Shown: one piece after another, positions 9,283 through 30,138 of the stretch | How the letters are laid out: each line of letters opens with the position of its first letter | How positions within the stretch are numbered: the stretch's first letter is position 1 | Origin: an uncultured Pseudomonadota bacterium | GTDB taxonomy: Bacteria; Myxococcota_A; UBA796; SXON01 | DNA: 48,929 bases | NCBI GenBank assembly: GCA_903921785.1 | Contig: CAIXRH010000063.1 | Span: forward strand, 1-48,929 | Direction of reading: 5' to 3' | Position numbers and translations under genes: made by a program | Notes under the pieces: generated by a model | What the model was told of the DNA's origin: nothing | Databases searched by the model: none | Seen by the model: the letters and a program-made list of their open reading frames with translations, nothing else

Positions 9283-9283
9283 G

Positions 9284-9544
9284 GTGCGGGTCACGGTGCC
9301 CACGCAGCTCCGCGACTACACCGCCGGGCGCGGCACAGTGGAGGCGGAGGGGACCACGCTCGCTGCGGTGCTCGACGACCTCGAACGGCAGTTCCCCGGG
9401 TTCCGCTTCCGGGTGATCGACGAGCAGGACCGGGTGCGCCGCCACATCATCCTGTTCGTCGGCGGCGAACGCCAGGACGACCTCGAAGCGGGCATTCCGC
9501 CCGGGGCCGAGCTGTTCATCGTCGGGGCGCTCAGCGGGGGCTAA
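9284..9544 (+). CDS. MoaD/ThiS-like sulfur-carrier (ubiquitin-fold) protein, 86 aa
   Basis: The length, the beta-grasp pattern (RVTVPTQLRDYT... TLAAVLDDLERQFPGF... HIILFVGGE... ELFIVGALSGG) and the C-terminal Gly-Gly identify a MoaD/ThiS-family protein. In this family the terminal glycine is adenylated and converted to a thiocarboxylate that donates sulfur. The GTG start lies one base after the stop of the BNR gene, and the next gene begins eight bases after its stop. No E1-like activating enzyme or molybdopterin/thiamine gene is present here, so it probably serves a pathway other than standard Moco or thiamine synthesis. This is inferred from context only. Confidence 0.88.
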   Translation: MRVTVPTQLRDYTAGRGTVEAEGTTLAAVLDDLERQFPGFRFRVIDEQDRVRRHIILFVGGERQDDLEAGIPPGAELFIVGALSGG

Positions 9545-9552
9545 GGAGGCGG

Positions 9553-11982: not shown

Positions 11983-11984
11983 GG

Positions 11985-14002: not shown

Positions 14003-14592
14003 CGCCCCTCCACCCAGCGCTGCATCAGCGCGGCACCCCAGGGGCCGGAGAGCTCAGGGTGAAACTGGCACGCGAGCACGTCCCCGCGTTCGAGGGCGGC
14101 CACGAAGGGCCCGCCGTGGTCGGCGAGGGCGCCGCTCCAGCCGGCGGGGATCCGGTCGACCTTGAAGGTGTTGGCGAAGTAGGCGAAGCCCGGGGTGATC
14201 CAGCGTGAACCGGGCTCGGGCACGACCTCGTTCCAGCCCATCTGCGGCACCCGCACCGCGCCCGTGAACCGGGTGACCGGCCCCTCGATCACCCCGAGGC
14301 CCACGGCCCCGGGTGTCTCCTCGCTGGTGCGCGCAAGGAGCTGGAGGCCGAGGCAGATGGTGAACGTTGGGCGACCGGCCTGTACCCGTTCGCGCAGCGC
14401 GTCGACCAGCCCCAGGCGGACGAGCTCGTCCATCGCCGCGCCGAACGCGCCGACCCCAGGGAGGACGAGGCGATCCGCGTGGCGCACCTCCTCCTCTGCG
14501 GCGGTGAGCACCGCCTCCGCGCCGACCCGCCCGAGCCCGGCGAGCACGGACGCGAGGTTCGCCACCCCGGTGCGGACGACGTGCACCTTCAC
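13996..14592 (-). CDS. hisH: Imidazole glycerol phosphate synthase, glutamine amidotransferase subunit
   Basis: HisH hydrolyses glutamine and channels ammonia to HisF. The class I amidotransferase triad is visible: the nucleophilic Cys in FTICLGLQLL (near residue 80), and His and Glu in CQFHPELSGPWG near the C-terminus. The oxyanion region VLPGVGAFG is also present. At 198 residues it is typical. It overlaps hisB by an ATGA junction upstream and hisF by seven bases downstream. Confidence 0.95.
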   Translation of the reverse strand: MKVHVVRTGVANLASVLAGLGRVGAEAVLTAAEEEVRHADRLVLPGVGAFGAAMDELVRLGLVDALRERVQAGRPTFTICLGLQLLARTSEETPGAVGLGVIEGPVTRFTGAVRVPQMGWNEVVPEPGSRWITPGFAYFANTFKVDRIPAGWSGALADHGGPFVAALERGDVLACQFHPELSGPWGAALMQRWVEGRC

Positions 14593-15179
14593 GTGAGCAC
14601 ACCCTTGGTGCTCGGCACGTCGGCGTGGCCGTCGCGGGCCACGGCTTCGCGCAACGCCAGGGCCAACGCCTTGAACGCGGCCTCGGCGCGGTGGTGGTCG
14701 TTCTCGCCCTTGAGCACGTCCACGTGCAGCGTCATCCGGGCGGCCATCGCCAACGAGCGGAGGGCGTGGCCGAGGTTCTCACACGCCACCCCGCCGAGGC
14801 TCTCCCGGCGAAGCCCAAGGTTCACATCGGCGAACGGGCGACCCGAGAGGTCCACCACCACCCGCGCCAGGGCCTCATCCAGCGGGGCGTGGGCGGCGCC
14901 GAACCGGCGGAGGCCGCGACGGTCGCCGACGGCGGCAAGGAGGGCCTCCCCGAGCGCGAGCGCCACGTCCTCGACGGTGTGGTGATCGTCGACGTGCAGG
15001 TCGCCGGTGCAGGCGATCGTGAGGTCAAACCTCGCATGCTTGGCGAGCGCGCCAAGCATGTGGTCGTAGAACGGAAGGCCCGTGCGCACCTCGGCGCGGC
15101 CGGAGCCGTCGAGGGTGAGGGCCACGGAGACGTCGGTCTCGGCGGTCTTTCGGGCGATCGTGGCGGTGCGGGGGGTCAT
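14589..15179 (-). CDS. hisB: Imidazoleglycerol-phosphate dehydratase, monofunctional, 196 aa
   Basis: HisB dehydrates imidazole glycerol phosphate to imidazole acetol phosphate using manganese. The two duplicated metal-binding motifs are present: DDHHTVEDVALALGEA and ENDHHRAEAAFKALA, along with GLPFYDHML. The ATG at 15179 gives the usual length; a frame extending to 16259 is a shadow in the hisC gene. The phosphatase domain found in enterobacterial bifunctional HisB is absent. In this operon a HAD domain is attached to HisC instead. The start overlaps the hisC stop in an ATGA junction. Confidence 0.95.
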   Translation of the reverse strand: MTPRTATIARKTAETDVSVALTLDGSGRAEVRTGLPFYDHMLGALAKHARFDLTIACTGDLHVDDHHTVEDVALALGEALLAAVGDRRGLRRFGAAHAPLDEALARVVVDLSGRPFADVNLGLRRESLGGVACENLGHALRSLAMAARMTLHVDVLKGENDHHRAEAAFKALALALREAVARDGHADVPSTKGVLT

Positions 15180-16894
15180 GGGAGCAGGGCCTCCAGATCG
15201 GCGGCGGTGGCGACGAGGCGGGCGGCGCCCGCAGCGAGGAGGAGCGGGCCGGTGCGCGCGGGGTCTTCCCCGGGGGCGACCATGCCGAGGGGGACGACGC
15301 CGGCGGCCCGGGCGGCCCGGGCGTCGTCGACGGTGTCGCCGATCATCCACGCGGCCCGAACACCGAGGCGGGTGAGCGCGGCGTGGACGGGCGCAGGATC
15401 GGGCTTCGCGGCCGTCTCCCCCATGCACACGGCGGTGGAGAACAAGTCCATCCACCCTTCGCGTTCGAGCAGCTCCATCGCGTCGCGGCGGGGGCGGCCG
15501 GTGACGAGCGCGAGGGGCAGGCGGGCGCGCAGCCGCTCGAGCTCGGCGCGGGTGAAGCGGGGACGCTCGGTGAGCTTCAGACCGGGAGTGCCGCCGTGCC
15601 CCTGGTACAACCGTTCGAACTGCTCGGTGACCTCGGCGAGCGGCACGTCCACCCCGTGCGCGGCGAGGAGCGCGCGGGTGAGCACCCAGTCGTTGTTCGC
15701 GTTTCCCCTGGCCTTCGCGGCGGCGATCTCCTCCCCGGTGACCGTCACCCCGTAGGCGGCGGCCGTCTGTCGGATGGCCTCGCGGTAGCTCCCGGACACG
15801 TCGACGAGGACGCCGTCGACGTCGAAGAGGAGCGCCTCGGGCGCGAGCACCGCCCTCAGCCCGGCGTGAAGCCGGGTCGTCGCCGCGGCTTCGCCCGGGA
15901 CGTTGATCCGCACGGCGTCCCCCAATGCCGGGTGGCCGGGCCAGCCCCGAACACCGATCCCCAGCCCGGCGAGGCCGTCGCGCAGCCAGGCGGACCGGGG
16001 CGACCGCGCGAACACGAAGTTCGCCTGGGACCGTTGCGCGTCCAGTCCGAGGCCGCGCATCGCCTCCGTGAGCGCGTCGCGGTCCGCGCGCACCTGGGCG
16101 ATGAACGCCGCGGACGCCGCCTGGTCCTGGTCGAGCCGGCTCGCGGCGAGGTGCAGGCTCGGCCCGGACACCGAGTACGGGTTCCCCGCCACCCGGAGCG
16201 CCGCGATCGCCTCCGCGGGCCCCATCGCGTAGCCGACCCGCAGGCCCGCGAGCCCCCACGCCTTGCTCAACGTACGAAACGCCACCGCGTTGGGCAGCTC
16301 GGCCACCACCGGCGTGAGGTCCTCATCGGCGAATTCGACGTACGCGAGGTCCACCATCAGGAGCACGTCCGGGAGCGCCGCGGAGAGGCGTCGGAGCATG
16401 GCCGCCGTGGCCACCTGGCCCGTGGGGTTGTTGGGGCTCACCACGGCCACCACCGCCGTGTCGGGCGTGACGGCAGCGAGCACCGCCTCGATCGGCCAGT
16501 CACCGCCAGGCCAGGGCACTTCGCGGACCTCGGCGCCGGCCCACCGAGCGTATCGGGGGATCATCTCGAAGGTGGGCACCGGGAGGACGATGGATCGTCC
16601 GGGGGTGAGGTAGGCCCGGCAGGCCCGGTCCAGGGCGTCGTCCCCGCCGGCGGTCACGATCACGCGATCGACTGAAACACCGAGTTCCGCCGCAAGCCGG
16701 GCGGTGAGGGCGCGCGCGTCCGGGTACGCCCGCACGAGCGTGTCGGGGTCTGCGTCCGCAAGGCGGGAGAAGATGTCGGGCGGGGAGGGGAGGCCGCCGA
16801 TGCCGTCGAGCAGCAGGTCGAGCGGCGCGGGGTGGCGGGGCACGCTGTACGGCACGAGGCCGGAGATCGCGGGCGAAGGGCGCGGCAGCGGCAT
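15176..16894 (-). CDS. hisC: Histidinol-phosphate aminotransferase fused to HAD phosphatase, 572 aa
   Basis: Residues 1-350 are HisC, a fold-type I PLP enzyme, with SPNNPTG at 153-159, VDLAYVEF and the PLP lysine K211 in RTLSKAWGLAGLRVGY. Residues 353-572 are a HAD subfamily IA phosphatase: DVDGVLVD (nucleophile D358, acid/base D360), ALVTGRPRRD, AAKPDPAPVH and IGDTVDDARAA. Placed in a his operon without any other phosphatase, the HAD domain is the obvious candidate for histidinol-phosphate phosphatase, which would give two consecutive steps on one chain. That assignment is inference. The ATG at 16894 shares a base with the hisG stop (TGATG). Confidence 0.92.
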   Translation of the reverse strand: MPLPRPSPAISGLVPYSVPRHPAPLDLLLDGIGGLPSPPDIFSRLADADPDTLVRAYPDARALTARLAAELGVSVDRVIVTAGGDDALDRACRAYLTPGRSIVLPVPTFEMIPRYARWAGAEVREVPWPGGDWPIEAVLAAVTPDTAVVAVVSPNNPTGQVATAAMLRRLSAALPDVLLMVDLAYVEFADEDLTPVVAELPNAVAFRTLSKAWGLAGLRVGYAMGPAEAIAALRVAGNPYSVSGPSLHLAASRLDQDQAASAAFIAQVRADRDALTEAMRGLGLDAQRSQANFVFARSPRSAWLRDGLAGLGIGVRGWPGHPALGDAVRINVPGEAAATTRLHAGLRAVLAPEALLFDVDGVLVDVSGSYREAIRQTAAAYGVTVTGEEIAAAKARGNANNDWVLTRALLAAHGVDVPLAEVTEQFERLYQGHGGTPGLKLTERPRFTRAELERLRARLPLALVTGRPRRDAMELLEREGWMDLFSTAVCMGETAAKPDPAPVHAALTRLGVRAAWMIGDTVDDARAARAAGVVPLGMVAPGEDPARTGPLLLAAGAARLVATAADLEALLP

Positions 16895-17760
16895 CAGGCG
16901 ATGATCTGGGTGGGCTCGGTGACGAGGATGTCGGAGCCGCCCAGTCGCAGGATCACCGGGATCAGCTCGGGCAAAAGCTTTCGAGTAACAGCTACTTTGA
17001 CCGCATAGCCCTGCCCACCGTGCAGCGTGGACACGGTGGGATGTTTCATGCAGGGCAGGACCTGGATCACCCGGTCGAGGTCGGCGAGGCCCACGTTGAG
17101 CTCAAGCACCACGCGGGAGCGTGCGTCGATCACCGAGCGGAGGAGCATCGCGAGGTGCTCGATCCGCTCGCGCCGGGCGGGGTCTGCCCAGGCGGTGGGG
17201 TTCGCCCAGAGGCGAGTGCTCGACTCCATCACGGTCTCGAAGATCTCGAGCCCGTTCGCGGCGAGGGTGGAGCCGGTCGCGGTGTTGTCCACGATACAGT
17301 CGGCGTCCTCCGGGGGGAAAACCTCCGTCGCACCGTAGCTGCGGACAAACTCGGCATCCAAGCCACACCGAGCGATCCATGCCTGGGTCAGCCGCTCGTA
17401 CTCACTGGCGATGACCCACCGCCGACCCAGCGGGAGGCGCCCTTCGACGAGCAGTTCGCGGGGGGCGGCCGCGACGAGCCGTACCGGGTCGAGCCCGAGG
17501 TCGAGCACGTCCACCAGCTCGGCGCCCTTCTCGGCCACCCAGTCGGCGCCCGCGAACCCCACGTCGCGCGTCCCATGGTGGAGCATCTCCACGATGGTCT
17601 GTGGCTTGAGGATCTTGGTCTCGAAGCCCGCGAGGCTGAGGACGGGGCGGTACGCCCGCGCCCCCACCTTGAGGGACACCCCGGCATCGTGCATGAGCCG
17701 CACGACCTCCTCGTACATTCGACCTTTCGGAATTGCGAGATGAATGCGGGAGACGGTCAC
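16894..17760 (-). CDS. hisG: ATP phosphoribosyltransferase, long form, 288 aa
   Basis: HisG condenses ATP with PRPP, the committed and feedback-regulated step. Family motifs include LAIPKGRMYEE at the N-terminus, DVGFAGADWVAE, the PRPP loop region CIVDNTATGSTLAANGLEI, and a C-terminal ACT-like regulatory domain (MKHPTVSTLHGG... ILVTEPTQIIA). This marks the long HisG form, which does not need HisZ. The start lies only 27 bp beyond the stop of a radical SAM gene on the same strand, and I see no terminator or strong promoter in that gap. The his operon therefore appears continuous with the Hxs-type cluster upstream. Confidence 0.95.
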   Translation of the reverse strand: MTVSRIHLAIPKGRMYEEVVRLMHDAGVSLKVGARAYRPVLSLAGFETKILKPQTIVEMLHHGTRDVGFAGADWVAEKGAELVDVLDLGLDPVRLVAAAPRELLVEGRLPLGRRWVIASEYERLTQAWIARCGLDAEFVRSYGATEVFPPEDADCIVDNTATGSTLAANGLEIFETVMESSTRLWANPTAWADPARRERIEHLAMLLRSVIDARSRVVLELNVGLADLDRVIQVLPCMKHPTVSTLHGGQGYAVKVAVTRKLLPELIPVILRLGGSDILVTEPTQIIA

Positions 17761-17787: not shown

Positions 17788-18894
17788 TTATCTCGGTTGG
17801 GCGCTCGCGTGGGGGGTGGGGTCGCCGGCCACCTCCAGCCCCAGCCGCTCGCACTCTCGCACCAACGCCCCCCGATCCGGATGGTCTCCCGGCCCGTCGA
17901 GCACCACCCGGGTCGCGCCGCGGGCCTGGCCCTGCACGAGACGCTGACGCAGCGTCCTAGAGCTGAAGGCGTCGCCGAGCTCCAGCCGCAGCGGGTCGGC
18001 GAAGGGCCGCGGGCCACCGGGGGGAGCGAGCTCATCGTCCCCCCATCGATCGAGGTAGGCCGGCTCCACGCCCCCGCAGGCGGAGCGCAGTGAACAACTG
18101 ACACATGTATCGGTGTGTCGCGGGGAACGGGGCGCCTCTTCTGCGCCGGCGAAGGCCCGCTCGGGGGAGGGCGCGTCCAGTCGGTCGGCGGCGACGGGGC
18201 GCAGCTCGGCGTTCATGCAGAGCGGGAGCCCCACCGTCTCCAGCTCGATGCCAAGGAGGCGGGCACGCTCCAGGGCCGCGGTGAGCGCCTCAGCGGCGAG
18301 GCTCAGCCGCGGGGCGAGCATCCGGGCTTCGGGCTTCGCCGCGCCCTCTTCGCGACACATCACGAAACGTATCGCCGTGGCACCGAGGCGGGCAGCGAGC
18401 TCCACCAGCGCCGCCGCTTGGGGCGTCGTCGTACGGGTAACCACGGCGTGAATCCGTACGGTGAGCCCTGCAACGCGCGCTTGCCGGACGGCCGTGGTCG
18501 CGCGGCGGAAGGCGCCGGGCGTGCCGGTGAGCCAGTCGTGTACGGCGGCCTCGGGCGAGTGGAGCGCCACGGCGAGATCGGTCAGCCCGAGCTTTCGGAG
18601 GTGCGCGGCGGCGCCGGCTGCGGCGAGGACGGATCCGTTGGTCTGTAGCGCGATCCGCCGGAAACCAGCGGCCTTCGCCAGCTCGACGAGCGCCGGCAGG
18701 TCCGGCCGGGTCGTGACCTCCCCGCCCGCGAGGATGACCCCCTCCCGGTGCGGGATGGCCGCGAGCGCGGCGCCTACCGCTGGGCCATCGGGCTCCGGGC
18801 TCCCCGTGTTTGCCGCGGCGACCTGCGGCGCGAGATCACAGAACCTACACGCCTGGTTGCACCGGTAGCCGACGCGGAGGTCCGTCCAGCGCAT
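17788..18894 (-). CDS. Radical SAM protein with C-terminal Cys cluster, 368 aa (rSAM-C)
   Basis: The ATG at 18894 was chosen because it lies two bases past the upstream stop and places C12-x3-C16-x2-C19 (CNQACRFC) at a typical N-terminal distance. AGGEV at 56-60 is the GGE motif, and VALHSPEAAVHDWLTGTPGAF is the motif shared with the other paralogs here. C226 and the set C264-x2-C267-x5-C273 form the candidate auxiliary-cluster site. About 95 further residues follow that cluster and look like a separate small domain. It is the last of the radical SAM genes before hisG. A peptide-modifying role is inferred from position. Confidence 0.87.
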   Translation of the reverse strand: MRWTDLRVGYRCNQACRFCDLAPQVAAANTGSPEPDGPAVGAALAAIPHREGVILAGGEVTTRPDLPALVELAKAAGFRRIALQTNGSVLAAAGAAAHLRKLGLTDLAVALHSPEAAVHDWLTGTPGAFRRATTAVRQARVAGLTVRIHAVVTRTTTPQAAALVELAARLGATAIRFVMCREEGAAKPEARMLAPRLSLAAEALTAALERARLLGIELETVGLPLCMNAELRPVAADRLDAPSPERAFAGAEEAPRSPRHTDTCVSCSLRSACGGVEPAYLDRWGDDELAPPGGPRPFADPLRLELGDAFSSRTLRQRLVQGQARGATRVVLDGPGDHPDRGALVRECERLGLEVAGDPTPHASAQPR

Positions 18895-18896
18895 GG

Positions 18897-19952
18897 TCAG
18901 CGGATCGCGTGGAGCTCGGCGTCGCCGTGCACCGGGAGGTAGTTCTTCCACACCCCTTCGCAGACCCCGGCGTAACGGCAGCCTTGGCACCGATGCTCGG
19001 GCTGGGCCTTCAGATCGTGCTTCTTCCGGTCCTGCCAGTTGAAACGAGCGCGGCCGTCCTCGATGGTGGCGATGCCGTCGGGGAAGCCGTCGGAGGTGAG
19101 CGTCTTGATGGAGCAGTCGGTGTCGAGGTCGCGGAACTCGCCGATGTACTTGCGGGCCAGCGCCTTGTTGCCCAGGAGCTCAGGCGGCAAGACACAGAGC
19201 GGGAAACTACCGAGGGTGAACGTCCGCTTGAAGTGGTACTCATTGAGGAGCACTGCCTTGAGCACGTAGGGCACCACGTCGGTGAGCTTGGGGATGAGCC
19301 GGTGCTCCGTCTCCGCGTAGCCCTCGGCGCGCACGAAGTTGGCGCGGACGTCGTCGACGCCGAGCTCGAAGAAGTACCGGAGCAGGTTGGGGAGGTACCG
19401 GTAGTTCGGAGCGCTGACCACGATGTTCACCGAGACGTTGTCGGCGAGCCGCCCCTCGGCGCGCTTCTGGAGCAGGTACTTCAGCCCGGAGGTCTTCTTC
19501 TCGAAGTTCCCCGGGACGCCGGTAAGGCCATCTTCCAGGGCGGGGTTGTGCCCGTGCATCGACATCGTGACCCGGGTGAGCCCGGCGTCGAGCAGCTTGT
19601 CGACGAAGTCGTGGCGGAAGAACTTGGTGCCGTTGGTGGCGAGGGTGATCCGGGTGTAGCCGAGGTCCCGGGCGAAGCGGATCGCGTCGAGGATCCACGG
19701 GTAGGTCGTCGGTTCGCCGCCGAGGAAGCCTACGGAGCGGGTGCCGCGGTCGTACCAGCGCTGGATCTCCGCCTGCATCTCCGGGTACGGCATGTACCGG
19801 CGCATCTCGGTGGCGGGCAGCCCGTCCAGGCAGAACACACACTTGTTGTTGCAGATCTTCCCGACGTTGATCTCGACGTTACGCCGGGTGTCGCGCCAGA
19901 GATCCGCTCCCGCGATCCCCGGTACGGACACGGCTGGCTGGGCAGCGCTCAT
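18897..19952 (-). CDS. Radical SAM protein with C-terminal Cys cluster, 351 aa (rSAM-D)
   Basis: The ATG at 19952 overlaps the previous stop (ATGA). C34-x3-C38-x2-C41 (CNNKCVFC) is the SAM-binding cluster site, LGGEP at 77-81 is the GGE motif, and MSMHGHNPALEDGLTGVPGNF is the shared paralog motif. C253, C280 and C322-x2-C325-x5-C331 are candidate auxiliary-cluster ligands. The C-terminus (HGDAELHAI) is nearly the same as that of the neighbouring rSAM-E (YGEAELHAL), supporting recent common ancestry. N-terminal residues 1-28 precede the barrel and may contact a peptide or partner. The substrate is unknown. Confidence 0.88.
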   Translation of the reverse strand: MSAAQPAVSVPGIAGADLWRDTRRNVEINVGKICNNKCVFCLDGLPATEMRRYMPYPEMQAEIQRWYDRGTRSVGFLGGEPTTYPWILDAIRFARDLGYTRITLATNGTKFFRHDFVDKLLDAGLTRVTMSMHGHNPALEDGLTGVPGNFEKKTSGLKYLLQKRAEGRLADNVSVNIVVSAPNYRYLPNLLRYFFELGVDDVRANFVRAEGYAETEHRLIPKLTDVVPYVLKAVLLNEYHFKRTFTLGSFPLCVLPPELLGNKALARKYIGEFRDLDTDCSIKTLTSDGFPDGIATIEDGRARFNWQDRKKHDLKAQPEHRCQGCRYAGVCEGVWKNYLPVHGDAELHAIR

Positions 19953-20902
19953 GTGGACTCCAAGGCGTGCAGCTCGGCCTCCCCGTACAGCTCGACATAC
20001 CGCGCGAAGACCCCGTGACACAAGCGATTCCAACTACAGGATCCGCAAGCCGTGACCTTCGCGCGCTTCCGGTCGGGTTGCCAGGAGTACAGCCCCTCCA
20101 GCGATACCCGGTCGGGGTGGCGGACCCACTCGAAGGTGACGCGTGGGTTCCAGTGGATGTCGTTCGCGTACATCCGGGCCTCGCCGAGCGCGCAGGCGGG
20201 CAGGCCGAAGAACCGGACGATCATCGGGCCGGCCTCGGCGAGCACCGCGGGCACGAGCCGCCGGACCTCATCCAGGCGCAACGTGAGGTGCGGATAGGCA
20301 TCCTCGCCCGCGCCTTCGGGCGTGACGTTGGAGACCACGAGCAGCTCGGCGCCGCGTTCACGTGCCAGCCGGGTCGTCTCCACCAGTCGCGCGGCGTTGT
20401 CACGCACCAGCACCGTGTTGACGAACCGCCGGAAGCCTGGGAACGCGGAAGCGTTCTCCATGGCCCGCGCGAGCCGGTCGAAGCTGCCGGGGCGGCCGGT
20501 GAGCGCGTCGTGCGTGGCGGCGTCGGGGCCGTGGAGGGAGAAGAGCGCCTCGTCGAGGAACGGGAGCGCGCGCGCGGCGAAGGCGGGGTCGGCGAGGCGG
20601 GTGCCGATGGTCCCGATGCTCGTGCGCATCCCCAGCTTCTTGGCGAGCTGGAGGATCTCCACGAACTGCGGATGGATGGTGGGCTCCCCCCCGGTGAAGT
20701 GCACCGACTCCACGCCCCGCTCGGCCTGCTCGCGGAGCACCCGCGCCACCCGCCCGAACGTCACCGGGAACGGGTTGTAGGCGGCCATCCGGTGCTCTTC
20801 GGAACAAAACGCGCACCGCTCGGGGCAGTGGTAGGTGATGTGGAATTCCAGGCGCCGCATCGGCTGGCCGGTCTCTGGGTGGAGCCAGGGCGTGGCGCTC
20901 AC
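19949..20902 (-). CDS. Radical SAM protein with C-terminal Cys cluster, 317 aa (rSAM-E)
   Basis: The GTG at 20902 overlaps the stop of the HxsC-like gene (GTGA), which supports it over an upstream ATG at 20956 lying inside that gene. C26-x3-C30-x2-C33 (CPERCAFC), TGGEP at 70-74 and FSLHGPDAATHDALTGRPGSF (the shared paralog motif) mark a functional radical SAM barrel. C237 and C286-x2-C289-x5-C295 are the candidate auxiliary-cluster ligands. It is the first of three consecutive paralogs downstream of the Hxs-like core genes, and is translationally coupled on both sides. No function beyond probable peptide modification can be assigned. Confidence 0.87.
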   Translation of the reverse strand: MSATPWLHPETGQPMRRLEFHITYHCPERCAFCSEEHRMAAYNPFPVTFGRVARVLREQAERGVESVHFTGGEPTIHPQFVEILQLAKKLGMRTSIGTIGTRLADPAFAARALPFLDEALFSLHGPDAATHDALTGRPGSFDRLARAMENASAFPGFRRFVNTVLVRDNAARLVETTRLARERGAELLVVSNVTPEGAGEDAYPHLTLRLDEVRRLVPAVLAEAGPMIVRFFGLPACALGEARMYANDIHWNPRVTFEWVRHPDRVSLEGLYSWQPDRKRAKVTACGSCSWNRLCHGVFARYVELYGEAELHALEST

Positions 20903-21906
20903 GCGGCCCCCCGGCGCGCCCGCATCGCGAAGAAGGCAGGGTAGAGCCGATCGCACAGGGTGGTGAGCTCGGCGTCGGCCGCGGCGGTGGCGTCGAGGAG
21001 GGTGCCGCCGAGGGCCTCGTGGAGGACGTCGGGCGTGCGTGCCGCGGCATCAGCGAGCTGTGCGTCTGTCGGCGGCGCGTCCAGGGTGCCGACGGCGAGC
21101 TCGCGGCGGAAGTGATCGAGCTTCCCGGCGAGCACCAGGTTGTTGGCGTAGATCCGCCGGTCGCTGTCGACCACGAACCCGGTGTTGTAGAACGGGGTGG
21201 GGGCGCGGACGAAGAGGTTGCGGAGGTAGAGCCGCTCGCCTCGCGTCCAGGCGGTCTCAAACTCTGTGGCGATCTCCGCGAAGGCCTCTCGGAGCGCGTG
21301 GAGCTGGCTTGGTGTCCACGGCAAGTAGTAGCCAGGGAGAAGGTTGAAGCGGGTGATCCCCAGAGAGCGGAGGTGACGGAAGTTCTCCGCGGCGCGGACT
21401 GCCGTACTCGGGGCGATCGTCTGGGTGACCACAAATCGCGGCAGGCTGAGCAACGCCGGCAGCTTCGCGACGATGGCGGCGTAGGTCGCGGCGCCGCGTC
21501 GAAGGCCGTCGTGGTCGCGGGCGGCCCCATCCAGGCTCAGGGTGAGCGTCACCGAGCGGTGGGCGCGCAGGTACTCCACCCATGCGGCGTCCAGGTGCGT
21601 GCCGTTGGTTGATACATATACGGATACCCCCGGGGGGGCGGCGTCGATCACCGCGCGCACCACATCTGGTGTGAGCAGAGGTTCGCCACCGAAGAGTTTG
21701 CAGTCACCGCCGCCGTGGCGTTCGACGAAGAGCGCCATCGCCCGTCGCGCGTCGTCGGCGGTGAGGTCGGGTTCGTCGTCCTTGACGGTGGGGCAGTACG
21801 CGCACCGGAGATCACACCGTCGCGTGACGACGAGGATCAGCGAATTTCGCCACCTGTCCTCGCGGACGCGCCGCTCACCACTGGCCGTGTGAGCCGTGGC
21901 TGCCAT
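20899..21906 (-). CDS. hxsC: HxsC-like radical SAM protein, 335 aa
   Basis: C31-x3-C35-x2-C38 (CDLRCAYC) and FGGEP (72-76) define the radical SAM core. Unlike its neighbours it has no C-terminal CxxC set, which fits HxsC, the second radical SAM protein of the His-Xaa-Ser system. The alternative, another small radical SAM family, is possible. The RWRNSLILVV strand before the cysteines needs an upstream start, and the nearest in-frame ATG is at 21906, inside the HGS-repeat region of the precursor gene; others lie at 21945-21978. No ribosome-binding site is visible, so translation is presumably coupled to the precursor. The stop overlaps the next GTG. Confidence 0.72.
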   Translation of the reverse strand: MAATAHTASGERRVREDRWRNSLILVVTRRCDLRCAYCPTVKDDEPDLTADDARRAMALFVERHGGGDCKLFGGEPLLTPDVVRAVIDAAPPGVSVYVSTNGTHLDAAWVEYLRAHRSVTLTLSLDGAARDHDGLRRGAATYAAIVAKLPALLSLPRFVVTQTIAPSTAVRAAENFRHLRSLGITRFNLLPGYYLPWTPSQLHALREAFAEIATEFETAWTRGERLYLRNLFVRAPTPFYNTGFVVDSDRRIYANNLVLAGKLDHFRRELAVGTLDAPPTDAQLADAAARTPDVLHEALGGTLLDATAAADAELTTLCDRLYPAFFAMRARRGAA

Positions 21907-22315
21907 GCGATCCGTGGCTGCCGTGCGAGCCGTGGCTGCCATGGCTGCCGTGCGAGCCGTGCGACCCGTGGCTGCCATGCGATCCGTGGCTGCCGTGCGA
22001 GCCGTGCGACCCGTGGCTGCCGTGCGACCCGTGCGAACAGTGCTGCGCGAGGAGCACCGCGGTGCTCTCCGGGGCGTTGCCCTTGCGGTCCAGGAACGCG
22101 GGGTCGAGCTCCATCTCTCCGGCGGTGGCCTGGAGCAGGAGCAGCGATTGCGCCACGGCGTCGCCCTCCTGGTTGGCGGCGACGACCTCCTTGGGCTGGA
22201 GGAGGTGGATGGCCTGGCGCTTGAGCACCGGGAACTCCGCCTCTTCGGCGGCCTGCTCCCAGTCTGCGCCGGCCTTCTGGCCAGGGAACGATCCGGGGTT
22301 CTGGTCCTTGCTCAT
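21875..22315 (-). CDS. hxsA: His-Gly-Ser repeat precursor peptide (HxsA-type), 146 aa
   Basis: Residues 1-91 form a charged, leader-like region without signal peptide and without Cys. Residue 92 onward reads HCS, then sixteen perfect HGS tripeptides, then HGQW and stop. This is a His-Xaa-Ser repeat protein, the signature product of the Hxs radical SAM system. The start has a GAGGTG ribosome-binding site and overlaps the hxsB stop (ATGA). The tail contains 18 histidines, 17 serines and one cysteine, and would be expected to bind transition metals even without modification. The nature of the modification (and whether the leader is removed) is unknown. Its 3' end overlaps the hxsC start. Confidence 0.9.
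   Translation of the reverse strand: MSKDQNPGSFPGQKAGADWEQAAEEAEFPVLKRQAIHLLQPKEVVAANQEGDAVAQSLLLLQATAGEMELDPAFLDRKGNAPESTAVLLAQHCSHGSHGSHGSHGSHGSHGSHGSHGSHGSHGSHGSHGSHGSHGSHGSHGSHGQW
21890..22042 (-). repeat. Tandem 9-bp repeat encoding HCS + (HGS)16
   Basis: Seventeen in-frame 9-bp units. Synonymous variation is mainly in the glycine codon third base and in serine codons (TCG/AGC types). A 40-bp segment at 21895-21934 is identical to 21967-22006, a shift of exactly 72 bp or eight units, pointing to recent block duplication. Any change in unit number keeps both the precursor frame and the overlapping hxsC start frame. Confidence 0.95.
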
Positions 22316-23832
22316 GCGGTCACCTCACTTGCGGGCGCGTACGGGGTGGTGCCCGGGCGCGACCGCTGGATGGTCCACCGGCGGAAGATCCGTTCGAGGC
22401 TCCCGTCGGTGTCGTTGGAGAGTAGCTGGTAGAGGTACTGCTGGACGCCGTAGAACTCCTGGCACTTGCGCGAGCGGGGGCGCTGGCCGAAGATGTCTCC
22501 GTCGAACATGTAGTTGTGGAGCGGCTGCACGCCGCACGTCGGTTTGTGCACGCAGCTGTGGCAGGCCGGCAGCGCATCCTGGATCGAGGCGACCTTCAGC
22601 GCCTTCACGGTGGGGTGGCGGAGGATCTCGTCGAAGCTCGAGGTGTCGACGTGGCCCAGCTTGAAGAAGTCGTTGCCCATGTGCGCGGCCATGCGGCCTT
22701 CGTCGTCGGTGTAGATCGACCCATCGAAGTTGTAGGCGAGCTGGGCGCTGCCCGAGCCACACGGCGACCGGCAGTCGCTGTAGTTCGGGTCGTCCGGGGT
22801 GAACATCTTGGTGAGGAAGACCGACGCGAGGCGTTCTTGCACGAACACGCCCTTGCGATTGAGCTCGATGATGTAGTCGAGGGTGGACCGGTAGAAGGCC
22901 AGGAACTCGTCCATCGTGTAGCCCACCTGCTGCCAGGTGTTCACCGCAAACCCGAACGGGTTGAGCGGGCGCAGGTGCAGGCTGCGGATCCCCCGGTTCA
23001 CGTACTCGTCCACGATGTCGCGCCCGCGGGAGAGCGAGGCGCGGGTGGTGGTCATCAGCGCGTCGACGTGGAACAGGTCGGGGTCGAACCCACGGCGGAC
23101 CCATTCGGCGTTGAACTTGTCCATCCAGCCGGTGACCGTGGCGTGGGAGCTCTGCTTCTCCATCCACCCGCGGTTCTTGTCGTGGAGGTCGGCGGGGCCG
23201 TCGAGCGAAGTGCAGATGCTCACGCCACGGTCGAGGAGGAAGTGCATCTTCTCCTCGTCCATCAGGGTGAGGTTCGTCACCGTCGAGAGGAGGAGCTCCT
23301 TGTTCTCGTACCGGTTCTTCTCCAGCGCATAGTCCACCACGAAGCGGATCACCGGGAAGTTGGCCGTGGGCTCGCCTCCCTGGAACTCGAAGCCGAGCAC
23401 CGGGGTGGGGGAGCGGAACGCGAAGTCGACGACCTTCCGGGCCGTCTCCAAGGACATGTCGGTGTCCGTCGCCGTCATGTCGGTGCGGCTGGCGTGGCAG
23501 TACCGGCAGGCGTGGTTGCAGCGGAGCGTGGTGACGATGGCGTGGAGGTGGGGCCCGTTCTGCAAGAAGGCCTTCTTGCGGCGGAGCTTGGTGGCGAATT
23601 GCTCCACGTCGAGGTCGCGCTTGAGGAAGTAGCGCTTGCGGAGGTTGGCGTAGAGCGGTTCGTCGGCCTGCACCTGCCCGGCGATGAACCGGCGGAACTC
23701 CTCAGGGGTGAGGAAGAGGTGTTCACCCACATCGTTGGTGAGCAGGACCTTGTCCCCGACCATCCCGTAGCGGAAGTAGCCGACGCTGCCCTCGTCGAAC
23801 GTGGTGGGGTCGACCTTGAGCGGGGTGAGCAT
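22312..23832 (-). CDS. hxsB: HxsB-like radical SAM maturase, 506 aa
   Basis: A 95-residue N-terminal domain (VGYFRYGMVGDKVLLTND, FLTPEEFRRFI) precedes the radical SAM core with C105-x3-C109-x2-C112 (CNHACRYC) and QGGEP at 151-155. The C-terminal SPASM-like part has C354, C358, then NFDGSIYTDDEGRM, and C424-x2-C427-x5-C433 and C457. This order, with the 'CGSGSAQLAYN' block and the CGVQPLHNY segment, is that of HxsB, the His-Xaa-Ser system maturase. The ATG at 23832 shares a base with the upstream stop (TGATG), with AAGGGG as ribosome-binding site. It lies directly upstream of its presumed substrate gene. Confidence 0.88.
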   Translation of the reverse strand: MLTPLKVDPTTFDEGSVGYFRYGMVGDKVLLTNDVGEHLFLTPEEFRRFIAGQVQADEPLYANLRKRYFLKRDLDVEQFATKLRRKKAFLQNGPHLHAIVTTLRCNHACRYCHASRTDMTATDTDMSLETARKVVDFAFRSPTPVLGFEFQGGEPTANFPVIRFVVDYALEKNRYENKELLLSTVTNLTLMDEEKMHFLLDRGVSICTSLDGPADLHDKNRGWMEKQSSHATVTGWMDKFNAEWVRRGFDPDLFHVDALMTTTRASLSRGRDIVDEYVNRGIRSLHLRPLNPFGFAVNTWQQVGYTMDEFLAFYRSTLDYIIELNRKGVFVQERLASVFLTKMFTPDDPNYSDCRSPCGSGSAQLAYNFDGSIYTDDEGRMAAHMGNDFFKLGHVDTSSFDEILRHPTVKALKVASIQDALPACHSCVHKPTCGVQPLHNYMFDGDIFGQRPRSRKCQEFYGVQQYLYQLLSNDTDGSLERIFRRWTIQRSRPGTTPYAPASEVTA

Positions 23833-24065
23833 CACGTGTTCATCCCCTTCCGCCCGAGGATCGTCTCGAAGAGCGCATGGTTGGAGAGCTCGTCGCCGAG
23901 GCGAGCCCGCACGCTCTCCCGGACGGGGACGATGGACACCAGCCAATCGGCCTCGGAGGCGCCCAACTCGTAGTTGCCGAGCGCGGCGAAGCGCTCCGCG
24001 GCGCGACGGACAGCGTCCTCGTCGTAAAGCGACTTGTGGAAGCGCAGGGCGATCGGCTCAGCCAC
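23832..24065 (-). CDS. Second, short HxsD-like protein, 77 aa
   Basis: Residues 5-48 (IALRFHKSLYDEDAVRRAAERF) align by eye with the core of the preceding HxsD (VRFSIDESVYDLDVVMGAAYLF), sharing the S-x-YD-x-D-x-V-x2-AA pattern. It lacks the longer C-terminal region. The GTG at 24065 overlaps the hxsD stop by eight bases and has a GGAG ribosome-binding site; the frame is open further upstream but in shadow of hxsD. It overlaps hxsB by one base. I infer that it is a paralog acting beside HxsD as a small partner of the radical SAM enzymes. No catalytic residues are evident. Confidence 0.75.
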   Translation of the reverse strand: MAEPIALRFHKSLYDEDAVRRAAERFAALGNYELGASEADWLVSIVPVRESVRARLGDELSNHALFETILGRKGMNT

Positions 24066-24483
24066 CGGAGGGCTTCTCCCAGGGCACGGGGATGTCGAGG
24101 TCGTCGGCGGCCATCTCCTCGGCGTCGAGCTCGGCGAGGAGCCGGTCGATCGTGGAGGGGCCATCGGCGGCGAAGAGCGCCTTGGCCATGATGAACTCGC
24201 GGAGCCGACCGTTGGCCTCGCCGACGCGCTTGCGCAGCGCCTGGTTGAGGAGCTCGTTCGCGAATTCCCCGGCGAGGGCGTGGAGCTCCGCTTCGGAGGC
24301 GGGCTTGCGGGTGCGCAGGGCCACCTGGATGCGGCGATCGCCCACACGATCGAGGAAGACGTAGCCCCGATCGAGGAACAGGTAGGCGGCGCCCATCACC
24401 ACGTCGAGGTCGTAGACGGACTCGTCGATCGAGAAGCGCACGCGGCGCTCGTCGACCTCGGTCTGAAGCTCGTTCTCGCTCAT
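24058..24483 (-). CDS. hxsD: HxsD-like protein, 141 aa
   Basis: Residues 15-40 (RFSIDESVYDLDVVMGAAYLF, then DRGYVFLDRVG) match the HxsD protein of the His-Xaa-Ser system, a small accessory protein always found beside the maturases and of unknown biochemical role. A C-terminal extension of about 50 residues is acidic and ends in IPVPWEKPSGG. The ATG at 24483 overlaps the upstream stop (ATGA). The region encodes no cysteines, so it does not bind a cluster. By analogy to small proteins near other radical SAM peptide maturases it may present the precursor, but that is inference. Confidence 0.8.
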   Translation of the reverse strand: MSENELQTEVDERRVRFSIDESVYDLDVVMGAAYLFLDRGYVFLDRVGDRRIQVALRTRKPASEAELHALAGEFANELLNQALRKRVGEANGRLREFIMAKALFAADGPSTIDRLLAELDAEEMAADDLDIPVPWEKPSGG

Positions 24484-24974
24484 GCCTGCGGCGCTCCGGG
24501 GGAGAGGCGGGTGGCGGCGGCCGCCAACGACTCGGGGTGGGCCCAGGCGCGGACGGCGTGGGAGGAGAGCTTGGCGATCCGGCCGTCGTCGGCGCCTTCG
24601 TTCTCGCGGACGGTGGCGGCGAGGCGGCGGAGGACCCGGCCCAGCGACTCGTCCATCGGCGAGGTGCCGTCGGCGCCGTCCATCACGATGAAGTCGATCT
24701 GCTCGGTGCTGGCGGGGCCCTTCGGCGCGCCGTCCCTCAAGCAGAGGTCGACCCGGGCCTGACGCCCGTCTTCGTTCACCAGGTTCAGGGTGATCGCCCC
24801 TTCGAACGGGGGAAATACCTTGGCCAGTCGCCACCCGAGGCCGAGCTCGGCGTCGGGACCCAACGGGTGGAGCAGGAAGCCGGGGTGCACCACCCCCGCC
24901 AGCGCTGCGCCCGGCACCGCGAGCACTGCGAGGCCGAAAAACGCGTTGCGGAGGAAATCCCGGCGACTGTTCAT
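24480..24974 (-). CDS. Tat-signal protein at head of the Hxs-like operon, 164 aa
   Basis: The N-terminus reads MNSRRDFLRNAFFGLAVLAV and then PGAALA, a twin-arginine signal (SRRDFLR) with hydrophobic stretch and cleavage site around residue 26. The GGGAG ribosome-binding site supports the ATG at 24974 over one at 25088. The mature part (about 138 residues) has LGWRLAKVFPPFEGAITLNLVNEDGRQARVDLCLRD and is otherwise unrecognised; it contains a single Cys. Tat export implies folding before export, often with a cofactor. It is the first gene of the array, overlapping hxsD. It could be an exported partner of the mature peptide, but this is inference. Confidence 0.78.
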   Translation of the reverse strand: MNSRRDFLRNAFFGLAVLAVPGAALAGVVHPGFLLHPLGPDAELGLGWRLAKVFPPFEGAITLNLVNEDGRQARVDLCLRDGAPKGPASTEQIDFIVMDGADGTSPMDESLGRVLRRLAATVRENEGADDGRIAKLSSHAVRAWAHPESLAAAATRLSPGAPQA

Positions 24975-25110
24975 GGGCAGGCTCCCGAAGGGCCGAGGAT
25001 ATCGCAGTCGTCGGGGCCCGGGGAGAAAAAAGCGCGGCGGCGCGGCGACCGTTACGCGACGGTGGCGACCCCGCGACGATCGGGGCATGCTCTATGGCAG
25101 GGAGCTCCCC
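24975..25110. promoter_or_regulatory. Divergent intergenic region with likely Hxs operon promoter
   Basis: This 136-bp gap separates the Tat gene (minus strand) and the MopE-type lipoprotein gene (plus strand). On the minus strand, TATCCT (25001-24996) within GCGATATCCT lies 21 bp before the ATG and is the best -10 candidate. A T6 run on the same strand lies about 20 bp further upstream. It must serve the entire minus-strand array unless internal promoters exist. Confidence 0.4.
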
Positions 25111-27345
25111 ATGCGCCGGTTCGTGATCGTCCTGTGCTTCGGCCTCGCGGCCTGCGCAACGCCGCCGTCCGATACGGGAGCGACGGACGCGGACGGCGAT
25201 GGCTCACCGGCCGGCCTGGATTGCGATGACGGCGACGGCGGGATCTACCCGGGCGCGACCGAACTGTGTGACGGGGTCGATCAGGACTGCGACGGGACGG
25301 CGGACAACGGGCTGGACCTCACGTGGTTCCAGGACGCCGACGGCGATGGCTACGGCGTCGGCGCCCAGGTCGTCCGCGCATGCGCTCAGCCGGCGGGCTT
25401 CGCGGACAACCAGGACGACTGTGACGACGGAAACGCGCAGGTGAACCCGGGCGCCGCCGAGCTCTGCAACCTGCTCGACGACAACTGCGACGGTCGGCCC
25501 GACGAGGCCGTCGCCACCTGGTTCACGGATGCGGACGGCGACGGGTACGGCGATCCCACCACGGAGGCCGAGACCTGCACCCCCGGCCAAGGTGCGGTGC
25601 AGCAGGGGGAGGACTGCGACGACACAGACGCTACCGTGAACCCCGGAGTCCCCGAGAACTGCGACGGGCTGGACACCAACTGCGATGGTCGTCCCGACGT
25701 CGGGGTGCTCGGCACCTGGTACAGCGACGTGGATGGGGATGGGTACGGCAACCCCTACGACTCCGAGGAGACGTGTGATCCGCCGGCGGGCTGGGTCGAG
25801 AATGGTGACGATTGCCGACCGTCCGAGGTCTCCGGCCACCCGGGTGCCCCCGAGCTGTGCAACAGCGTGGACGACGACTGCGACGGGGAGAAGGACGAAG
25901 ACTTCGACCTGGACGGCGACGGCCATTGGACCGAGGCCTGCGACGGCGATGACTGCGACGACGGGGATCCGCTGGTGAATCCTGGGGTGGAGGAGACCTG
26001 CGAGGACGGCGTCGACAACGACTGTGACGGTCGCGACGCCCACTGCGCCTTCGACGGCACCGTGGAAGCCAGCGTCGCGGAGTCGAAGCTCTACTCTCCG
26101 GGCGCGAGCGCCGACGCGGGGCGAATGCTCCTCTCCCGCGACGTGGACGGCGACGGCAACGACGACCTCATGGTCGCCGCGCAAATGGCGAACGGCTACC
26201 GTGGCGCTGCTTACGTCGCCCTGGGCCCCTTCACCACCGGCCGGGCGCTCGACGACGACTACACGCTCTCCCCGAGCAGCTCATCGTACGCCGGGCGCTC
26301 GATCGGCATCGGCGATGTCGACGGCGACGGCGAGCTCGACTTCGCGGTCGGCGCGCCCGACGGAACCGAGAAGGAGTGGGTGGCGTTCGGTCCGCTCACG
26401 GGGGACGTGGACCTCGACAACGCCGACATCCAGTGGAGCGGCACCTACGGCGCCGAGGTCGGGCATGGCTCGGAGATCGCGGACGTCAACGGGGACGGGG
26501 TGGATGATGTGGTGATCGGCGCGTACGAAGATCCGGTGGGCGCCTACGAAGGCGGCGCCATCTACCTGGAGTACGGGCCGCTCGTCGCCGGCGACTACTC
26601 GCTGGCCACCAGCTACGACGTGCGCATCCTCGCCTCGAGCACCTACGAGTACGCCGGCCGGTACCTTCGCGCCGGCGCGGACGTGGACGGCGACGGCATC
26701 GGGGACATCCTGGCCGTGGCGCCCTACTCGTCGATGAGCACGCCGTATGGCGGCGGCGGCTACCTGTTCTACGGGGGGCTGACCAGCGACGTCCACTTCA
26801 GCGATGCAGACGCGACCTTCCTTGGGGAGACCGCCAACGACTACGCCGGTGAGGAGCTCGCGATGGGCGACTACGACGGCGACGGGCGCGCCGACATCGC
26901 GCTTGGCTCCTACGGCAACGCCTCCGGCACCTACGTGGGGGCGACCTACATCACGCTCGCACCCCCGTCCGCCTCCGTGGATCTCGGGAGCACCGACTTC
27001 GTGGTCCGCGGCAGCGCGGCCAACGACCAGTTCGGGCTCGGGCTCACGATCGCCGACATCGACGAAGACGGCGCGGGCGACCTGCTGGTCGGCGCGATCG
27101 GCGCGAGTCACGGCGGCGTCGCGTCCGGCTCGGCGTATCTGTTCTTCGGCCCCCCGACCGGCAGCTTCGGCCCCTCCGACGCCGAGGCGGTCTTCACCGG
27201 CGAAGGCGCCGGCGACCAGTTCGGCGAGGCGTTCGCGGTGGGCGACTTCGACGGCGACGGTCACCGGGACGTCGCGATCGGCGCCGTCAGTGAGTCCACC
27301 GGGGGAACCGGCGGCGGCTCGGTCTATGTGTTCTCCGGGAACTAG
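25111..27345 (+). CDS. Lipoprotein with MopE-type metal-binding motifs and FG-GAP repeats, 744 aa
   Basis: A lipoprotein signal (MRRFVIVLCFGLAAC, Cys15) is followed by five MopE-type motifs of the form DCDD-x-D...PGA-x-E-x-C...D-x-DCDG (residues 35-310), and then by seven or so FG-GAP/integrin-like repeats (DVDGDG-x-DD..., VGA) to the C-terminus. The motifs bind divalent metal, typically calcium, and the FG-GAP part folds as a beta-propeller. The start at 25111 has a GGGAG ribosome-binding site; an in-frame ATG eight codons upstream would also be possible. It is likely anchored on the cell surface. Such proteins are numerous in Myxococcota. Confidence 0.9.
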   Translation: MRRFVIVLCFGLAACATPPSDTGATDADGDGSPAGLDCDDGDGGIYPGATELCDGVDQDCDGTADNGLDLTWFQDADGDGYGVGAQVVRACAQPAGFADNQDDCDDGNAQVNPGAAELCNLLDDNCDGRPDEAVATWFTDADGDGYGDPTTEAETCTPGQGAVQQGEDCDDTDATVNPGVPENCDGLDTNCDGRPDVGVLGTWYSDVDGDGYGNPYDSEETCDPPAGWVENGDDCRPSEVSGHPGAPELCNSVDDDCDGEKDEDFDLDGDGHWTEACDGDDCDDGDPLVNPGVEETCEDGVDNDCDGRDAHCAFDGTVEASVAESKLYSPGASADAGRMLLSRDVDGDGNDDLMVAAQMANGYRGAAYVALGPFTTGRALDDDYTLSPSSSSYAGRSIGIGDVDGDGELDFAVGAPDGTEKEWVAFGPLTGDVDLDNADIQWSGTYGAEVGHGSEIADVNGDGVDDVVIGAYEDPVGAYEGGAIYLEYGPLVAGDYSLATSYDVRILASSTYEYAGRYLRAGADVDGDGIGDILAVAPYSSMSTPYGGGGYLFYGGLTSDVHFSDADATFLGETANDYAGEELAMGDYDGDGRADIALGSYGNASGTYVGATYITLAPPSASVDLGSTDFVVRGSAANDQFGLGLTIADIDEDGAGDLLVGAIGASHGGVASGSAYLFFGPPTGSFGPSDAEAVFTGEGAGDQFGEAFAVGDFDGDGHRDVAIGAVSESTGGTGGGSVYVFSGN

Positions 27346-28545: not shown

Positions 28546-30138
28546 ATGGCCGACTTCCTCGTCCTCGGCACCGGCGTCGCCGGGCTCTTCTTTGCGCTGC
28601 GGGCGGCGCGGCACGGCACGGTGCGGCTCTGCACCAAGGTCAACCGCGAGGAGTCGAACACGGCGTATGCCCAGGGCGGCATCGCCGCCGTCTGGGCGCC
28701 CGACGACACCGCCGAGGCCCACGTGCAGGACACGCTCATCGCCGGGGCTGGCCTGTGCCGGCCCGACGCGGTGGAGCAGACGGTCCGCGATGCCCCTGAC
28801 CGCATCCGCGAGCTCATCGAGCTCGGGGTGAAGTTCTCCCAGCACGGTGGCGACTACAGCCTCCACCGTGAGGGCGGCCACAGCACGCGTCGGATCCTCC
28901 ACGCGGACGATCTCACGGGAGCGGAGCTCGTCCGCGCGCTGCTCGCGGCGGTGGCCGAGGAGCCAAACATCGAGCTGATGGAGGACCACATCGCCGTGGA
29001 CCTCATCACGGAGAACAGCATCGCCCGGCGCCGGGGCCGCCCGCCCACCGACCCCGATCGGGTGCTCGGCGCCTACATGCTCGACCCGAAGACCGGCCAG
29101 GTGTCGGTGGAGGCCGCACGGATCGTGGCGCTCTGCACGGGCGGCGCCGGAAAGGTGTACCTCTACACCTCGAACCCCGACATCGCGAGCGGCGATGGGA
29201 TTGCGATGGCGTGGCGGGCTGGGGCCCGGATCGCGAACATGGAGTTCGTCCAGTTCCATCCTACCATTCTCTTTCACCCGCACGCGAAGAGCTTCCTCAT
29301 CTCCGAGGCGCTGCGCGGCGAAGGCGGCGTGCTCCGCCTCCGTAGCGGGGAGGCCTTCATGACGCGGTACGACCCCCGCGCCGAGCTGGCTCCGCGCGAC
29401 ATCGTGGCCCGGGCGATCGACGCCGAGCTCAAGCGCCGCGGCGACGACTGCGTCTACCTCGACATGACTCACCTGGACCGGCCGACCCTCCAGGCGAAGT
29501 TCCCCAACATCTACAAACGCTGCCTGGAGCTGGGGATCGACATGGCCGTCGCCCCCATCCCGGTGGTGCCGGCCGCCCACTACTTCTGCGGGGGCGTGCA
29601 GACGGACCTCGAGGGGGAGTCGAGCGTGCACAACCTCTTCGCCATCGGCGAGGCGGCGTGTACGGGATTGCACGGGGCGAACCGGCTCGCGTCCAACTCG
29701 CTTTTGGAGGCGGTGGTCTACGCGGACCACGCCTCGCGCATCGCCGCCGAGCGGCTGAGGGAGCCCGCCCCTCCGGTGGACATCCCCGAGTGGGATCACG
29801 GTCGCGCCGTGGACAGCGACGAACAGGTGGTCATCACCCAGACCTGGGACGAGATCCGCCGCTTCATGTGGAACTACGTCGGCATCGTGCGCACCACCAA
29901 GCGGCTGTTGAGGGCCCGCGCCCGGGTGGAGCTGGTGAAGGACGAGATCCACGACTACTACTGGGACTTCCGCCTCACCGCCCCGTTGGTGGAGCTGCGC
30001 AACCTCGCGACGGTGGCCGAGCTGGTGATCGAGAGCGCGCTGCGGCGGAAGGAGAGCCGCGGGCTGCACTTCACGCTGGACTACCCGAACCAGGACCTTC
30101 GTGGGGTGCGGGACACGGTTTTGCAGCGGCGGTGGTAG
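28546..30138 (+). CDS. nadB: L-aspartate oxidase, 530 aa
   Basis: NadB oxidises L-aspartate to iminoaspartate, the first step of de novo NAD synthesis. The FAD-binding motif GTGVAGLFFALRAA lies at residues 8-21, the flavin-contacting block EESNTAYAQGGIAAV follows, and EGGHSTRRILHADD and the signature ANRLASNSLLEAVVYA near residue 385 are all characteristic. The C-terminal helical domain is complete. Length is normal. No nadA or nadC is seen nearby, so the other steps are elsewhere. It converges with the pilin-like gene, nine bases apart. Confidence 0.95.
   Translation: MADFLVLGTGVAGLFFALRAARHGTVRLCTKVNREESNTAYAQGGIAAVWAPDDTAEAHVQDTLIAGAGLCRPDAVEQTVRDAPDRIRELIELGVKFSQHGGDYSLHREGGHSTRRILHADDLTGAELVRALLAAVAEEPNIELMEDHIAVDLITENSIARRRGRPPTDPDRVLGAYMLDPKTGQVSVEAARIVALCTGGAGKVYLYTSNPDIASGDGIAMAWRAGARIANMEFVQFHPTILFHPHAKSFLISEALRGEGGVLRLRSGEAFMTRYDPRAELAPRDIVARAIDAELKRRGDDCVYLDMTHLDRPTLQAKFPNIYKRCLELGIDMAVAPIPVVPAAHYFCGGVQTDLEGESSVHNLFAIGEAACTGLHGANRLASNSLLEAVVYADHASRIAAERLREPAPPVDIPEWDHGRAVDSDEQVVITQTWDEIRRFMWNYVGIVRTTKRLLRARARVELVKDEIHDYYWDFRLTAPLVELRNLATVAELVIESALRRKESRGLHFTLDYPNQDLRGVRDTVLQRRW

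Follow-up and report, generated by a model that had tools for sequence, protein, structure and literature searches.

The 48,929-nucleotide contig CAIXRH010000063.1 (the window, i.e., the whole stretch analysed) carries genes of the His-Xaa-Ser (Hxs) type for a ribosomally synthesized and post-translationally modified peptide (RiPP). They probably represent the HGQW subtype of a phylum-wide, partly clustered HxsA4-type pathway that modifies each His-Gly-Ser (HGS) unit of a repeat precursor; we give this reading a probability of about 0.6. It is highly probable that the precursor, HxsB, HxsD, the short HxsD-like protein D2, a protein with a twin-arginine translocation (Tat) type signal, six more radical S-adenosylmethionine (SAM) enzymes (R1-R6), and a HExxH hydroxylase belong to a single pathway. 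Including HxsB, this pathway has seven radical SAM enzymes. Across the phylum, HxsB, the R4-R5-R6 set, and usually the hydroxylase go with HGS precursors, whether linked to them or not. By its sequence, the locus is a more elaborate Hxs-type system of the HxsA4 kind, outside the classical HxsABCD definition.

The locus and its repeat precursor

The initial annotation described a coupled minus-strand series at 17788-24974 that includes a precursor ending in HCS-(HGS)16-HGQW. All nine genes are found there, with overlapping stop and start codons for most neighbours, in the order Tat-signal-like protein, HxsD, D2, HxsB, precursor HxsA4, R1, R2, R3, and R4. Five of the nine proteins exceed the Pfam gathering score for the radical SAM domain, as had been described. 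The designation as an expanded Hxs-type locus is borne out by HxsB, HxsD, the HGS precursor, and the extra enzymes, but it misses three further pathway genes spread over 5144-10692. The genes of the pathway are the following:

24480-24974, minus strand: Tat-signal-like protein of HGQW-type systems, 164 amino acids (SRRDFL motif; TIGR01409, 14.9 bits)
24058-24483, minus strand: HxsD, 141 amino acids (TIGR03976, 59.6 bits, cut-off 50)
23832-24065, minus strand: D2, short HxsD-like protein, 77 amino acids (NF038315, HxsD_rel, 56 bits, cut-off 41)
22312-23832, minus strand: HxsB, radical SAM/SPASM maturase, 506 amino acids (TIGR03978, 504.7 bits, cut-off 370)
21875-22315, minus strand: precursor HxsA4, 146 amino acids, leader of about 91 residues plus repeat core (NF038313, 106.9 bits, cut-off 55)
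21878-22042, minus strand: core HCS-(HGS)16-HGQW (read from the sequence)
20899-21906, minus strand: R1, radical SAM enzyme specific to HGQW systems, without auxiliary cysteines (start codon inferred, within the precursor gene)
19949-20902, minus strand: R2, radical SAM enzyme with auxiliary CxxCx5C motif (start inferred)
18897-19952, minus strand: R3, radical SAM enzyme, nearest model HxsC4 (NF038332, 153.5 bits, cut-off 500)
17788-18894, minus strand: R4, radical SAM enzyme, member of the R4-R5-R6 set (model scores, tree, motif alignment)
9553-10692, plus strand: alpha-ketoglutarate HExxH-type peptide beta-hydroxylase (TIGR04267, 105.9 bits, cut-off 40)
6220-7938, minus strand: R5, radical SAM enzyme, 572 amino acids, two auxiliary CxxCx5C motifs (motif alignment, tree, co-occurrence)
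5144-6220, minus strand: R6, radical SAM enzyme, best family HxsC (81.5 bits, cut-off 267.9)

The HxsB and HxsD models, named beforehand as a check, both score above their cut-offs, and the second, short HxsD-like protein of the initial annotation is recognised by HxsD_rel. The proposed match of the core to HxsABCD did not hold. With the HxsA model (TIGR03979) the precursor scores 19.4 bits against a cut-off of 121.65, and it is an HxsA4 instead. The HxsC model (TIGR03977) is reached by none of R2 (55.1 bits), R3 (68.2), R4 (65.8), R5 (73.2), and R6.

Classical HxsABCD systems, such as the Aeromonas plasmid example with the order hxsD-hxsB-hxsC-hxsA, share with the window HxsB and HxsD above cut-off and a presumed substrate in the form of a His-x-Ser repeat protein. 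While they have two radical SAM enzymes, the window has seven, without HxsA or HxsC model matches. It adds D2, the Tat-like protein, and the HExxH hydroxylase, and its parts are divided between two loci. As for the HxsA4/HxsC4 pair of NCBIfam, the window has the HxsA4 precursor but lacks HxsC4, R3 giving the best score, and its HGQW ending comes with R1, R2, R3, and the Tat protein. In the literature searched, no paper was found that names HxsA4 or HxsC4, and none on Hxs chemistry despite the curated gene names.

The precursor's HCS start and HGQW end are kept in relatives. Among 78 distinct arrays (39 ending in HGQW and 39 in HGSW) the first unit is HCS in 71, and of the 1204 subsequent units 25 differ from HGS. 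Relative to the majority codon of the respective array, 1091 departures are synonymous and 25 non-synonymous, although non-synonymous opportunities are threefold the synonymous ones; both TCN and AGY codons are used for the repeat serines. The repeat is under strong purifying selection at the amino-acid level. Since, moreover, the block Tat-HxsD-D2-HxsB-precursor-R1-R2 is largely syntenic in the window's class, the locus is not a product of chance. One leader motif is common to both subtypes (64 of 75 leaders vs 1% of shuffles, the pattern having been fitted afterwards). Leader, repeat core, and encoded enzymes of the putative RiPP are all present and co-conserved.

The HGS protein might instead stay unmodified, with a structural or metal-binding role (e.g., collagen-like, with Gly at every third residue), while the radical SAM enzymes have another substrate. 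The repeat does exceed the gathering score of Pfam Collagen (37.3 vs 27.2), and many HGSW genes are distant from radical SAM genes. However, the precursor contains no proline, for which the collagen reading was rejected, and it matches a curated His-Xaa-Ser precursor family. It also lies inside a maturase operon in the window, and HxsB is found in nearly all genomes with HxsA4 (see below). An unmodified protein is thus considered very improbable.

The CX3CX2C motif and the auxiliary cysteines of HxsB are conserved across 70 aligned sequences. HxsD is predicted to have an E-E-H-E-E-H alpha/beta fold, ferredoxin-like and with a long helix. Its best matches among solved structures are ferredoxin-like or Rpb11-like (Z < 8), and the winged helix of the RiPP recognition element is not among them. 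The window's own genome has a second, diverged HxsB on contig C334 (locus L073, 468.6 bits). The HxsB genes of L046, L058, L074, and L075 resemble it and have an R4-like radical SAM gene nearby; a His-x-Ser repeat frame was looked for at these five loci and none was found.

Distribution in the phylum and the two core types

Distribution was examined in 379 genomes of the phylum and 71 of the window's class, with HxsA4 presence called at a cut-off near 1e-11. In the class, HxsB exceeds its cut-off in 37 genomes. In the phylum, HxsA4 is found in 120 genomes and HxsB in 126, both occurring together in 117; two of the three HxsA4 genomes without HxsB are only 58-68% complete. R5 is present in 121 genomes, R6 in 123, and R1 in 43. 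HxsA4, HxsB, R5, and R6 are all present in 104 genomes, at least three of them in 122, and none in 246 (pairwise Fisher p from 3e-67 to 1e-84, uncorrected for kinship). Genera of the class are concordant in 39 of 40 cases, though presence and absence alternate inside families f1, f2, f3, f5, and f9. When one genome per species was scanned for R1, 45 loci were found, in records titled Deltaproteobacteria, Proteobacteria, Myxococcota, and a few implausible titles of metagenome-assembled genomes (MAGs); the phylum is taken to be Myxococcota, with UBA796 as the GTDB class. The locus also turns up in public MAGs whose records bear the names Klebsiella pneumoniae, Rhodobacterales, or Halorhodospira (L078, L083, L091, L118); these titles are probably wrong.

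HGS genes had been expected always to occur with a radical SAM gene. At close range this fails: some HGSW precursors stand alone, and for many HGS genes of the phylum no radical SAM gene lies within 9 kb. But HxsB exists elsewhere in 117 of the 120 HxsA4 genomes. The enzymes therefore act in trans, and the RiPP reading survives. Co-occurring pathway genes are often scattered around the chromosome.

One could regard the nine-gene locus as the whole system, with R5, R6, and the HExxH gene as unrelated neighbours from another pathway. In the window they are about 7 to 12 kb from the nine-gene block, past an intact his operon, and the strands partly differ. Against this, R5 and R6 accompany HxsB and HxsA4 in 116-117 of the 126 HxsB genomes, even when unlinked. 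In some other families R4-like, R5, and R6 genes lie directly upstream of the Tat gene, adjoining the Tat-HxsD-HxsB block, and in further families a single run holds R4-R5-R6-HxsD-HxsB, the precursor being located elsewhere. In the family of the window, roughly 1 to 10 kb separate R4 from the R5-R6 pair that follows it, and among the loci examined the his operon sits between R4 and R5-R6 in the window only. A system limited to the nine genes is accordingly judged highly unlikely, and the hydroxylase and the R4-R5-R6 set are added to the Hxs pathway as trans-acting partners.

All through the window's family, orthologues of the hydroxylase (51-73% identity) are oriented divergently from R5, and in other families they are located close to Hxs genes; HExxH is kept in 24 of 24 homologues. 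In a comparison of 33 chosen genomes, homologues occur in 12 of 16 HxsB-positive and in none of 17 HxsB-negative genomes, often unlinked (Fisher p 5e-6). In two R5-hydroxylase-R6 runs of HGQW loci (L157:2469-2870 and L193:15963-16355) the hydroxylase and R6 are separated by an additional HxsD-like gene, which scores 35.1 bits with TIGR03976, under the cut-off of 50.

The two natural core endings are tied to different enzyme sets. The HGSW type is phylum-wide, and the HGQW type, to which the window belongs, comes with R1, R2, and the Tat protein. The Tat protein is encoded at HGQW loci, along with R1 and R2 where the contig reaches, with L063 as the sole exception. R1, R2, R3, and the Tat protein are absent from all 36 HGSW loci. 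G163, G190, G221, and G272, four genomes from outside the class, combine an HGQW locus bearing R1 with additional HGS genes at other sites; in G221 the HGSW ending was read directly. In HGSW-type relatives a true HxsC4 may lie beside the precursor, as in L153 (630.6 bits, cut-off 500).

Enzymes, chemistry, and product

R1 had been called HxsC-like. Its best curated model is PapB (93.8 bits, below the cut-off of 340), HxsC is not among its best 25 models, and only the three cluster cysteines are conserved among 32 relatives. The HxsC assignment is ruled out by the model scores, the radical SAM tree, and the absence of auxiliary cysteines. R2, R3, and R4 do show the auxiliary-cluster cysteines described for them. 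The pattern (one cysteine, then CxxCx5C) matches that of the two plasmid HxsC proteins examined, and the scores with HxsC or HxsC4 are 55-154 bits, far under the cut-offs. R2-R4 are distant relatives of HxsC and HxsC4, and the window has no true HxsC.

In the tree of radical SAM domains, R2, R3, R5, R6, and HxsC4 each form one well-supported group. All R4-like genes fall in one group (Shimodaira-Hasegawa-like approximate likelihood ratio 88), which long branches make unsure. The view of R4 as a genus-specific extra was rejected on this tree, which unites R4 of all lineages. Among the genes that the initial annotation took for additions, the Tat protein, R2, and R3 stand, but R4 is not an extra because it belongs to the R4-R5-R6 set found phylum-wide. 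By sequence comparison, the true additions at the window locus are R1, R2, R3, and the Tat protein.

With HxsD and D2 as helpers and the leader as guide, HxsB would work along the repeat and modify every HGS unit. The modification is most plausibly an i to i+2 His-to-Ser carbon-carbon crosslink like that of three-residue cyclophanes, a tentative assignment made by analogy. H-G-S shares its aromatic-x-x layout with the substrates of the triceptide enzymes (XyeB, GrrM/OscB, YhhB, HaaB). HaaB and YhhB link C2 of His to the Cbeta of the second residue after it, and MscB connects Phe with the Cbeta of Ser (PMC11002830). R4-R6 and the hydroxylase would then oxidise the repeats, e.g., by His beta-hydroxylation, and R1 and R2 would act in the HGQW subtype. 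By sequence, ChlH (8s5f) is the nearest, and only, solved relative of the hydroxylase. The window enzyme shares the TIGR04267 match and the conserved HExxH with ChlH, PflC/PosC, and BpmH; unlike these it stands alone and goes with the Hxs pathway. It is reported that such enzymes beta-hydroxylate His and Asp (ChlH) or a string of consecutive Gln (PosC, PflC) (PMC12636437). Because H-G-S has the cyclophane spacing and the HExxH enzymes offer these precedents, a crosslinked and hydroxylated His-rich polymer is a reasonable guess.

The initial annotation called the first protein of the series a Tat-signal protein. The SRRDFL motif supports this, and an RR motif is visible in most relatives (31-sequence alignment), but TIGR01409 stays just under its cut-off of 16.7 bits. 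The protein core is predicted by AlphaFold with a predicted local distance difference test (pLDDT) score > 90; no convincing or significant match was found among PDB structures (Foldseek, VIA), which does not prove a new fold. The Tat gene and the precursor were duplicated jointly in one genus (L037, L050; a single event), which suggests that the two proteins function as a pair. The Tat-like protein would carry the finished peptide across the membrane, and the product would be a long, rigid, His-rich polymer outside the cytoplasm. It may possibly bind metal; noursin, a His-crosslinked lanthipeptide, binds copper (PMC10206099). Another pathway acting on each unit of a repeat precursor is TvgAB, in which a radical SAM enzyme modifies every TVG repeat unit to give poly-cyclopropylglycine (PMC11002830; PMC9062424); the repeat and the enzymes differ, and there is a single radical SAM enzyme.

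Instead of a long metal-binding polymer, the product could be a small bioactive peptide (an antibiotic or signal) cut from the core. RiPP enzymes of the radical SAM and HExxH types have precedents among bioactive peptides. Also, Gly precedes the terminal QW or SW, and backbone cleavage by PosC/PflC takes place close to the C-terminus, at a small residue (PMC12636437). On the other hand, the number of units ranges from 3 to 45 among HGQW arrays, with no fixed length, and the syntenic block showed no recognisable immunity gene, dedicated peptidase, or ABC exporter. A small peptide is therefore thought rather unlikely. A speculative extension of the HGQW-subtype reading is that seven radical SAM enzymes and a non-heme iron hydroxylase, dispersed in the genome and widespread in the phylum, together make a fully crosslinked, hydroxylated, exported HGS polymer of 3-45 units, the core ending (HGQW or HGSW) matching the enzymes present. 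Such a polymer, if it exists, would represent a new class of ribosomal biopolymer and not a small natural product of the RiPP type. Should the enzymes modify every unit, the polymer would be genetically programmable. On a substrate this regular, modification should appear as a mass ladder.

Several observations weigh against unit-by-unit modification by one phylum-wide pathway. The window HxsB falls far below every cyclophane-synthase cut-off (38-47 bits against 310-450: YhhB 47.1/445, XyeB 46.4/450, GrrM/OscB 37.9/310). In several lineages (L205, L213, L218, L223, L225, L226, and the R4d genes of the class) R4 no longer has the CX3CX2C motif but still occupies its usual operon position, which suggests that R4 is perhaps not catalytic there; the window R4 retains the motif. 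In four genomes with HxsB, including two from family f17, no hydroxylase was found, and at the HGQW locus L063 neither R1 nor R2 lies within 9 kb. Since the Tat protein is missing from HGSW systems, their export would differ. In addition, the co-occurrence statistics ignore shared ancestry, and most of the genomes are draft MAGs.

Neighbouring genes

A compact his operon occupies 10714-17760 (minus strand). It includes a hisA-hisIE-like fusion at 11985-13247 (seen by eye) and, at 15176-16894, a second fusion that joins hisC and HAD phosphatase domains (hisC 197.9 bits; HAD TIGR01548, 123.3 bits). hisG (16894-17760) directly follows the nine-gene block on the same strand, so that the His-rich frame could be imagined to sense histidine for the operon in the manner of an attenuator peptide. 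Four genes, however, separate the precursor from hisG, and the repeat belongs to a protein family that is under constraint and has enzymes of its own. RNA families (Rfam) and tRNAs were searched in the window and none were found. A functional link with the his operon was rejected because hisG adjoins no other locus examined, and the attenuator explanation is extremely improbable.

Between the hydroxylase and R5, a BNR/sortilin-like beta-propeller frame is found at 8149-9282 (plus strand) in the window only, with no homologue at the other loci. L-aspartate oxidase NadB (28546-30138, plus strand, 745.2 bits) is an ordinary neighbour. Divergent from the Tat gene, the frame at 24790-27345 (plus strand) encodes a large protein that looks secreted and contains MopE-like and FG-GAP-type repeats. 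MopE-like frames upstream of the Tat gene are also found in the relatives L045, L053, L054, L056, and L057.

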